64,000 bases of DNA from Thermasporomyces composti (GTDB lineage: Bacteria; Actinomycetota; Actinomycetes; Propionibacteriales; Actinopolymorphaceae), in NCBI RefSeq assembly GCF_003386795.1, contig NZ_QTUC01000001.1:3782001-3846000 (forward strand). The letters are read 5' to 3'. This document shows positions 42,341 through 45,654 of the stretch, one piece after another (position 1 is the first letter of the stretch; each line of letters begins with the position of its first letter). The position numbers were made by a program, and so were the translations under genes. The notes beneath the pieces are model-generated. The model searched no databases. It had not been told where the DNA came from and saw only the letters and a program-made list of their open reading frames with translations.

Positions 42341-42415
42341 GGTCACCAGGATTCATCCACGCACTGGTTCGGCCCCACGCGGGATGCCTTGACGGCCATG
42401 GGACACTCGGGGCCC

Positions 42416-43453
42416 ATGGGATACACCGCCGCGTCGAATCGCTATGACTCCATGCAGTACCGCCGCTCCGGTCGCAGTGGCTTGCAGCTCCCGGCGATCT
42501 CGCTCGGTCTCTGGCACAACTTCGGTGACGACGTCCCGCTCGAGCGGCAGCGGGCGATCCTGCGGCGTGCGTTCGACCTCGGGGTGACCCACTTCGACCT
42601 CGCCAACAACTACGGCCCTCCGCCGGGCGCGGCGGAGCGGAACTTCGGCACGCTGCTCCGCCAGGACTTCCGGCCGTACCGTGACGAGCTCATCATCTCC
42701 ACCAAGGCTGGCTACCGCATGTGGCCAGGACCCTACGGCGAGTGGGGATCGCGCAAGTACCTGCTGGCCAGCCTCGACCAGAGCTTGTCGCGGATGGGCT
42801 TGGAGTACGTTGACATCTTCTACTCCCACCGCTTCGACCCAGACACCCCGCTCGAGGAGACGATGGGGGCACTCGCCTCCGCCGTCCAACAGGGCAAGGC
42901 GCTCTACGCCGGCATCTCGTCGTACTCGCCGGAGCACACCCGGCAGGCCGCCGCCATCATGGCGGACCTCGGCGTGCCGCTGGTGATTCACCAGCCGTCG
43001 TACTCGATGCTCAACCGGTGGATCGAGGAGAGCCTGCTCGACACCCTCGCCGAGGAGGGCATCGGGTGTATCGCGTTCTCGCCGCTGGCGCAGGGCCTCC
43101 TCACGGACAAGTACCTCGCGGGCATCCCCGCTGACTCCCGAGCGGCCCAGGGCAAGTCGTTGCCGCGCGAGCAGATCTCGGAGACCAACCTCAAGCACGT
43201 GCGCGCGCTCAACGAGATCGCGGCCCGTCGAGGGCAGACACTGGCGCAGATGGCGCTCGCCTGGGCGCTCCGCCATTCCGAGATGACCTCGGTGCTCATC
43301 GGCGCGAGCAGCGTGCGCCAGGTGGAGGAGAACGTCGCCGCGCTCGACAACCTCGATTTCAGCTCCGACGAGCTCGCCGAGATCGACCGGCACGCCGTCG
43401 AGGCAGGCATCAACTTGTGGCGGCGATCCAGCCATGGTTCGCGCGACGCCTGA
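42416..43453 (+). CDS. Aldo/keto reductase, L-glyceraldehyde 3-phosphate reductase (YghZ) type
   Basis: A 345-residue aldo/keto reductase. The N-terminus aligns with E. coli YghZ (RYDSMQYRRSGRSG, then LSLGLWHNFGDD-like SLGLWHNFGDD), which decides the start among several ATGs. The catalytic tetrad is visible: Asp and Tyr in FDLANNYGPPPG, Lys in STKAGYRMWPG, His in FYSHRFD. The C-terminal NADPH site is IGASSVRQVEENV. It reduces aldehydes such as L-glyceraldehyde-3-phosphate or methylglyoxal. Confidence 0.9.
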   Translation: MGYTAASNRYDSMQYRRSGRSGLQLPAISLGLWHNFGDDVPLERQRAILRRAFDLGVTHFDLANNYGPPPGAAERNFGTLLRQDFRPYRDELIISTKAGYRMWPGPYGEWGSRKYLLASLDQSLSRMGLEYVDIFYSHRFDPDTPLEETMGALASAVQQGKALYAGISSYSPEHTRQAAAIMADLGVPLVIHQPSYSMLNRWIEESLLDTLAEEGIGCIAFSPLAQGLLTDKYLAGIPADSRAAQGKSLPREQISETNLKHVRALNEIAARRGQTLAQMALAWALRHSEMTSVLIGASSVRQVEENVAALDNLDFSSDELAEIDRHAVEAGINLWRRSSHGSRDA

Positions 43454-43598: not shown

Positions 43599-44585
43599 GT
43601 GATCGAGCTGGACGACATCCGCAGGACCCGTCGCCATGACCACGGGGAGCAGATTCTCCTTGACAGCGTTGACCTCTACCTCGACGCGGGGGAGGTCTGC
43701 GGCGTCGTCGGGGAGCCCGCCGACGGACCCCGGACCCTCCTCCGCTGCGTCAACCTGCTCGAACGTCCCGACGAAGGCACGGTGCGGGTCGCCGGTGAGG
43801 ACTTGACGGCGATGAGCCCCCGGCAGCTCCGTCGGGCCCGCCACGCCATCGGCGTCCTCGGGCCGGGGGACCGGCTCCTCGAGCAACGGACCGTCGCACG
43901 CAACGTCTCCTTGCCTCTGGAGTTCGCCGGGGTTCGGCAGCGAGAGCGCGACCTTCGGGTTGACGAGATCCTCGACCGGATGGGGCTCGCGGAGGTCGCC
44001 GATCGCTGGCCCTCCGACCTGACCGCGGAGGAGCGTCGTCGGACGGCGGTCGCTCGGGCCTTCGTCACCCGGCCACGCGTGCTGTTGTGTCAGGAGCCGA
44101 CCGGCGGCCTGAGTGAGGACGGCGCCCGCTCCCTCCTCGCGCTCATGCGGGGGCTCATCGCCGACCAGCAGACCACGGTCCTCGTGGCGACGCAGAACCC
44201 CGCCGAGCTCGCGGCCCTGTGCGAGTCGGTGGCGTTCCTGCACGACGGCCGGGTCGTCGAGCAAGGCACCCTTCCTGACACGATCGCGAACCCGTCGTCG
44301 AAGCTCGCGAGCCTCTTCCTGCCGACGCTGCCCGACCCGGACGCCGAGCACGGGACCGGAGCTGTTCTGGTCGACCTCACCTTCGCCGGCGTCGACCCCC
44401 ACGTTCTCAGCGAGGTCACCCGAGCGTGCGGGGTCGGCGTCAGCGTCGTCGCCGGGTCGTTGGAAAGCCTTCGCAGCCGAACGGTGGGTCGGCTCCGCGT
44501 TGAGCTGACCGGGTCAGGAGAGGACTGTCAGCGGGCTCTGGACAAGCTCACCGACCTCGCCCTCTCTCCCAAGGTGCATCCATGA
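43599..44585 (+). CDS. Degenerate MetN-like ABC ATPase homologue with NIL domain
   Basis: A 328-residue protein colinear with methionine-importer ATPase MetN, for example LLRCVNLLERPDEG after the P-loop, RTVARNVSLPLEF, and a C-terminal NIL-type ACT domain (about 250-325). Yet the catalytic motifs are altered: the P-loop is GEPADGPRT (38-46) with Pro44 at the lysine, the Q-loop glutamine is Gly88, LSGGQ is LTAEE (141-145), Walker B LLCDE is LLCQE (Asp to Gln165), and the switch histidine is Gln199. The frame is intact with normal codon usage. GTG start with GAAGG at seven bases. It overlaps the permease gene as ATGA. It is probably unable to hydrolyse ATP; no second MetN or MetQ is nearby. Confidence 0.82.
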   Translation: MIELDDIRRTRRHDHGEQILLDSVDLYLDAGEVCGVVGEPADGPRTLLRCVNLLERPDEGTVRVAGEDLTAMSPRQLRRARHAIGVLGPGDRLLEQRTVARNVSLPLEFAGVRQRERDLRVDEILDRMGLAEVADRWPSDLTAEERRRTAVARAFVTRPRVLLCQEPTGGLSEDGARSLLALMRGLIADQQTTVLVATQNPAELAALCESVAFLHDGRVVEQGTLPDTIANPSSKLASLFLPTLPDPDAEHGTGAVLVDLTFAGVDPHVLSEVTRACGVGVSVVAGSLESLRSRTVGRLRVELTGSGEDCQRALDKLTDLALSPKVHP

Positions 44586-45232
44586 GTCACTGGCTGAGCG
44601 TGCTGCCGGAGCTGGCGCGAGCGACAGGGACCACGCTGGCGACAGCGTCTGTGGCGACGGCGTGCGCTGTCGCCCTCGGCCTCCTCTTCGGGGTCGCACT
44701 GGTAGCGACGGACAAGGACGGTCCGCTGCGGGTTGTCCACGCGGTGCTCGCTTGCCTCGTCGAGATCGTGGGCTCCGTTCCCGTCGTCATCGTTCTGCTC
44801 GCCGCCACGTCGCTGCTCCGTGCCAGCGCGGAGCGCGGTCTCGCGGCCTCCGTCGTGCCGCTTGTCGTCGCCGCGACACCGTGGTTCGCCCGACGCGTCG
44901 AGTCGAACCTGCGTGCGGTGAGCCCTGCGGTCGTCGAGATCGCCGTCGCCATGGGCGCGCGGCTTCGTCACGTCCTGGTGACCGTGCTGCTGCGGGAAAG
45001 CCTGCCCGGAATCGCCTCCAACGTCGCGCTGACCGCGGTGCTCCTCCTGGGCTTCACCGCGGTCGCGGACGTCCTCGACCGACGAGGGCTCGGTGGTCTG
45101 GCGCTCGCCTACGGCGTCGAGGAGCCGCGAGCCGACGTCGTCGTGGTCGTCGCCGGCGTCTTCGTGGCCCTCGCCCAGGCGGTGAAGTGGCTCGGCGATC
45201 AAGTGGCCCAACGGCTGGACCACCGACGGTGA
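44582..45232 (+). CDS. MetI-like ABC transporter permease
   Basis: A 216-residue membrane protein with about five hydrophobic segments, the size of MetI. The cytoplasmic EAA-type loop that contacts the ATPase is present: EIAVAMGARLRHV with the later LPGI. The region ETVGSVP-like EIVGSVPVVIVLL and GFTAVADVLDRRGLG also match MetI. The ATG overlaps the end of the degenerate MetN-like gene and has AAGGTG before it, so the two are translationally coupled. A substrate-binding MetQ lipoprotein gene is absent. Confidence 0.8.
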   Translation: MSHWLSVLPELARATGTTLATASVATACAVALGLLFGVALVATDKDGPLRVVHAVLACLVEIVGSVPVVIVLLAATSLLRASAERGLAASVVPLVVAATPWFARRVESNLRAVSPAVVEIAVAMGARLRHVLVTVLLRESLPGIASNVALTAVLLLGFTAVADVLDRRGLGGLALAYGVEEPRADVVVVVAGVFVALAQAVKWLGDQVAQRLDHRR

Positions 45233-45397
45233 CGGTGCCAGCTTCCAGGTGCCCGCCTCCAGGTCGCCCCGAGTCGTCGTCCTGTGACGACAGCGGCCAC
45301 CTCAGGGACCCGTAGGGGAGACGTCAGGGATCACCGAGGGTTTCGCCGGCCCACTCCGTGCCGTTCCTCGGCCTACGATGACCATGGGAGGTGGCAC

Positions 45398-45550
45398 ATG
45401 CTGCTCAAGATCCTGCTCGTCATCGCCATCATCTGGCTGGCCCTCGCCCTCATCGGCTTCATCATCAAGGGCCTGCTGTGGCTCGGCATCATCGCGGCGG
45501 TGCTGTTCGTCGCGACCAGCCTGTGGGGTTGGATCAAGCGCAATACCTGA
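45398..45550 (+). CDS. Small hydrophobic membrane protein
   Basis: A 50-residue protein with two closely spaced hydrophobic helices (residues about 2-24 and 28-44) and a basic C-terminus (WIKRNT). A strong GGGAGGTGG precedes the ATG and TACGAT at 45374-45379 is a plausible -10 box, so it has its own promoter. Similar tiny hydrophobic proteins are common in actinobacteria; function unknown. It faces the minus-strand PfkB gene. Confidence 0.65.
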   Translation: MLLKILLVIAIIWLALALIGFIIKGLLWLGIIAAVLFVATSLWGWIKRNT

Positions 45551-45654
45551 CCGCAGAGTCACACCCGATCGGGTGACTCCTCCGCGTCGCCCCGCCCCCA
45601 CCGTCCACGCTGGCCACTCGCTCGCGGAGACGCCGGCGGGATAGCTGCTCGACC

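Follow-up and report, generated by a model that had tools for sequence, protein, structure and literature searches.

Among the closest described relatives of the system analysed here is the E. coli methionine importer MetNI(Q) (PDB 3tui, 3dhw and 6cvl), with which it shares the order of an ABC and a NIL domain and the encoding of MetN and MetI together. ABC proteins with a degenerate nucleotide-binding site have been described among type I exporters (PMC7756269) and for B. subtilis RbsA and NupO (PMC11466899). Among the titles and abstracts searched, which came mostly from outside subscription journals, none described a MetN devoid of its motifs. Solitary S components of ECF importers (BioY, BtuM) may offer an earlier example of an importer's membrane part that functions with no ATPase of its own; their fold is unrelated, and no pseudo-ATPase is retained.

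The window, that is the whole stretch of 64,000 nucleotides of Thermasporomyces composti that was analysed, carries a MetN-like and a MetI-like gene in a locus whose features, together with a MetQ gene from a second genus, are as follows.

42353 to 43453, forward strand: aldo-keto reductase (AKR), the upstream synteny anchor in 8 of 8 family genomes
43599 to 44585, forward strand: putative MetN-like pseudo-ATPase, ABC domain at about residues 1–245 and NIL domain at about 250–328
44582 to 45232, forward strand: MetI-like permease, 216 aa, ATGA-coupled to the pseudo-MetN, diverged, its coupling (EAA) loop best kept
45233 to 45398, forward strand: gap without metQ, at the metQ position of G005 and G001
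45399 to 45551, forward strand: small hydrophobic ORF, 50–51 aa, the downstream synteny anchor in the family
L032 7463 to 8272, reverse strand: MetQ homologue of G005, with a lipoprotein-like N terminus and a match to the NlpA family

The AKR and PfkB anchors flank the locus in eight genomes of the family, and sigB lies beside PfkB in seven of them. The window genome (G000) has only MetN and MetI at this place. A second genus (G005) has metN, metI and metQ, with MetN and MetQ degenerate, and a third, earlier-branching genus (G001) has an intact metN-metI-metQ. No metN, metI or metQ was found by tblastn between the anchors of the remaining five genomes (G002, G003, G004, G006 and G007); in the four of these that were inspected, the distance from the AKR match to the small hydrophobic ORF is only about 115–125 bp. 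Since the AKR+PfkB tree unites the five operon-less genomes in a single clade (support 100), one deletion explains them all. The other orthologous loci examined (29 of 29) show the same gene order of MetN, MetI and MetQ, the last at least in part. The small ORF itself was found by tblastn in six of these eight genomes, where it lies directly 3' of the operon or of the empty junction; it has a weak DUF7554 match, below the cutoff. No Rfam match to a methionine riboswitch was found near the operon in eight loci. A scan of genome contigs with the MetN-like protein alone gave no matches other than distant ABC proteins.

The pseudo-MetN frame begins with GTG and is open over 328 aa. Pfam placed ABC_tran at residues 21–168 and NIL at 257–322, and the MetN model TIGR02314 matched residues 2–318 with 189.8 bits without reaching its cutoff of 499.7; this cutoff discriminates poorly, since the intact G001 MetN (356 bits) misses it as well. 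The colinearity with MetN, NIL domain included, that a sequence-only reading of this DNA had proposed is thus borne out. Aligned with 29 intact actinobacterial orthologues and the G001 protein, the window MetN has GEPADGPRT as its Walker A, the Lys being replaced by Pro44 and the following Ser by Arg45. The signature LSGGQ has become LTAEE, the Walker B Asp Gln165, the D-loop SALD GGLS, the H-loop His Gln199 and the A-loop Tyr Arg11. The same reading had listed Pro44, Arg45, LTAEE, Gln165 and Gln199 correctly; it was right that the Q-loop Gln is lost but misplaced it by one residue, the position being Pro89 and not Gly88, which replaces the preceding Phe. Its statement that every catalytic motif is lost stands for the motifs that contact ATP, all of which are substituted, but not for the catalytic Glu166 and for Thr46, both retained. 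The open frame and the ATGA coupling (metI starts at 44582) were as it had described, and its normal codon use was close to the mark, although the GC3 of metN and metI (0.86 and 0.85) differs from that of the neighbouring AKR and PfkB genes used as reference (about 0.91). The protein thus has the architecture (ABC + NIL) and the predicted fold of MetN, and the intact Walker A and B, Q-loop, LSGGQ and H-loop are absent from it. Judged by these residues, ATPase activity would be absent, and a kept fold, lost catalytic residues and purifying selection (see below) together make the protein a likely pseudo-ATPase, its inactivity presumed.

The permease partner had been called intact. Its frame is, but the protein is a diverged MetI, scoring 81.7 bits against the NF008049 cutoff of 212 (G005, 161; G001, 215) and retaining 38 of 61 family-invariant residues, with 23 lost. 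MetQ, which ATP-driven methionine import requires, had rightly been reported as lacking: we found none adjoining metNI, no relic of it in the gap at 45233–45398, and none elsewhere in the 4.37 Mb single-contig genome. Homologues of both MetE and MetH are present in all eight family genomes, and methionine import is therefore probably dispensable.

The G005 MetN, at the same locus, shows degeneration in the same set of motifs (ADDPCTARA, Glu89, LSDEE, Glu165, ATLE and Gln199). Because this orthologue exists, with the same MetI partner and in a second genus, the motif loss goes beyond chance or error, and a sequencing error was rejected as its cause. Orthologues with intact motifs had been named as a finding that would speak against a retained complex. 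One does exist, in G001, but it counts only in part: this genus branches earlier, and its metNIQ is complete. G000 and G005 have in common Arg45 in Walker A and Glu144-Glu145 in the signature, and Glu166 is kept in both. The MetQ of G005 was compared with the ligand residues of Neisseria MetQ (PMC6739813): at least five of seven, mapped by motif spacing, are lost, as equivalents of Y81, F98, H100, Y103 and N238 are missing, R156 is kept, and the asparagines around N213 (Neisseria numbering) are also changed. From these substitutions, the G005 MetQ may bind something else or nothing.

We then looked at where constraint falls. Only 4 of 20 ATP-motif invariants are kept in each species, compared with 77 and 88 of 123 non-motif invariants (Fisher 5e-4 and 2e-5; 0.0016 and 5e-6 with a smaller reference set). 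In ABC importers the segment following the Q-loop sits near the coupling helix of the permease; G000 and G005 share 85% identity in this segment of MetN (residues 93–125), and 56% over the whole protein. The EAA loop of MetI (117–143) is likewise 74% identical, the whole permease 50%, and the NIL domain retains 10 of its 13 invariants. Measured against the outgroup tree, terminal rates are highest in the motif columns, lower in residues 141–245 and lowest in the coupling surfaces and in NIL. This mosaic agrees with a loss of ATP handling in a protein that would still fold and bind its permease. Constraint on the NIL domain is stronger than on the second half of the ABC domain; a sensor role is compatible with this, and no more. 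AF2 models of MetN (pLDDT 90.2) and MetI (80.1) had E. coli MetN (3tui) and MetI (3tuj) as their best PDB matches, in line with the structural check proposed earlier; such predicted folds are expected given the intact homologues in the alignment and count as supporting evidence only. In E. coli MetN, the regulatory domain requires Asn295 to bind methionine (PMC12357092); aligned by eye, the position of this residue is Ser in G000 and G005 but also in the intact G001 protein and so does not discriminate.

Selection on the two genes was measured with dS taken from the neighbouring AKR and PfkB genes, which is an assumption, because their own synonymous sites were nearly saturated, including in codon fits with free dS. 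After the split of the two lineages, omega was 0.09 (G000) and 0.06 (G005) for MetN and 0.14 and 0.04 for MetI, compared with about 0.02 for the neighbours; these are branch averages and could hide a recent end of selection in G000. On all post-split branches omega=1 was rejected (LRT of 203–557, and of 23–153 with dS quartered). Neutral simulations gave at most 0.30 amino-acid identity, whereas 0.56 (MetN) and 0.50 (MetI) were observed. That the frames are open says little by itself in GC-rich DNA, as the neutral probability of remaining stop-free in both lineages (GC 0.87) is 0.04–0.08 for MetN and 0.16–0.19 for MetI. With the frames open and omega=1 rejected, a pseudogene in the sense of a disrupted frame or neutral evolution was rejected. 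Both metN and metI nonetheless evolve several times faster than the neighbouring genes.

The explanation that we favour, with a confidence slightly above even, is that a MetNIQ importer lost the use of ATP and was kept as an ATP-independent MetN-MetI complex, a pseudo-transporter. ATP binding and hydrolysis would have disappeared, probably in a single event, in an ancestor shared by the G000 and G005 genera, and MetQ would have been lost later in the window species. The dead MetN has most likely kept the MetN fold. Its preserved post-Q-loop face would rest on the coupling loop of MetI, which would be held in one conformation. The dead ABC domain might then act as an adaptor that links this loop to a NIL domain placed at the membrane, and the nucleotide-free complex as a static or ligand-sensing scaffold that does no pumping. 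The retained pseudo-ATPase complex that had been suggested from the sequence thus gains from the G005 orthologue with its MetI, from post-split omegas below 1 and from the preferential loss of ATP-contact residues; against it stand the fast evolution, the missing MetI invariants, the absence of MetQ and a related clade without the operon. Across ABC dimers, Walker A lies opposite the signature motif, and the charges of Arg45 and of Glu144-Glu145 could therefore be complementary. On a further, rather unlikely idea that starts from these residues and the kept Glu166, salt bridges would take over from ATP in holding the MetN dimer together, the ATP-free dimer would be locked on MetI, and the importer would be a static sensor or gate read through the NIL domain.

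The main rival, a real possibility that we nevertheless doubt, is a dispensable importer in slow decay, functionless since the loss of the ATPase, whose genes are lost piecemeal. The genomes can be laid out as such a series, from the intact G001 through G005, with MetN and MetQ degenerate, and G000, without MetQ, to the five without the operon; methionine synthases are present, both genes are accelerated, MetI worst in G000, and the scarcity of stops in a GC-rich genome would keep the frames open at the probabilities given above. The end of the series needs no such process, however, as a single deletion in one clade suffices, and steady decay does not account for the strong rejection of omega=1 on both terminal branches, for identities far above the neutral expectation, or for losses that concentrate at the ATP contacts and spare the coupling face and the NIL domain.

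Whether the loss was shared bears on another rival, which we consider improbable: that each lineage lost its ATPase recently and independently, the low omegas reflecting a functional past. Lys44, Gln89 and Asp165 are indeed replaced by different residues in G000 and G005, and an accelerated shared stem finds weak support in the motif columns (2dlnL of 3.8); with the 19 strict motif columns all topologies had equal likelihood, the collapsed-tree version being similar. Against independence, the stem is strongly accelerated in non-motif columns (2dlnL of about 51), and 11 of the 36–41 invariants changed in both MetNs have the identical new residue, where 4.3–7.3 were expected under neutral mutation (P of 0.002–0.09, depending on the mutation model). 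These identical replacements include S45R, G144E, Q145E, K146R and H199Q. The two MetNs are monophyletic with 100% support, on a stem of 0.44–0.51 substitutions per site compared with 0.05 in AKR+PfkB, and the MetI stem is likewise long (0.61). The loss of the ATPase was thus probably shared, once, in the common ancestor of the G000 and G005 genera.

In the last rival the pseudo-MetN pairs with another active ABC ATPase, or is replaced by it on MetI, and MetI transports. We give this very little credit: there are ABC proteins in which one of the two sites is degenerate (PMC7756269; PMC11466899), and the MetI coupling loop is kept, but there is no MetQ, and a composite ATP site needs a good Walker A and a good facing signature, neither of which the pseudo-MetN has, so that a heterodimer of any kind would have two impaired sites. 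The pseudo-MetN also holds the sole NIL domain of the 4.37 Mb genome. A heterodimeric transporter with one degenerate site was therefore rejected as far as NIL proteins are concerned, what little credit is left going to an unrelated NBD as partner, and the pairing with a second active MetN proposed in the earlier reading, together with the second complete MetNIQ that it had suggested looking for, falls away as far as the assembly goes.

To return to the ATP-independent MetN-MetI complex, the selection that keeps MetN and MetI in two genera suggests that the broken pump now serves a role other than pumping. If this is true, an ABC importer can be put to a new use in which ATP plays no part. A single locus offers an intact, a fully degenerate and a reduced copy as well as an empty site, which makes stepwise repurposing or decay directly testable. 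Compared with E. coli MetNI(Q), the window system is alike in the predicted folds of both subunits and in its preserved coupling surfaces, and differs in the loss of the ATP motifs save the Walker B Glu, in the absence of MetQ and in its diverged permease. The G001 metNIQ and the 29 actinobacterial loci have the same operon, that of G001 also at the same place between AKR and PfkB, and differ in keeping all motifs together with MetQ. As for the ABC proteins with degenerate sites, they resemble the window MetN in that the ABC fold is conserved while Walker A, Walker B or signature residues are substituted. Transporters degenerate at one site are common, however, and keep one active site, whereas the presumed MetN homodimer would have both dead, the sole ATPase of an importer having lost every motif save one residue.
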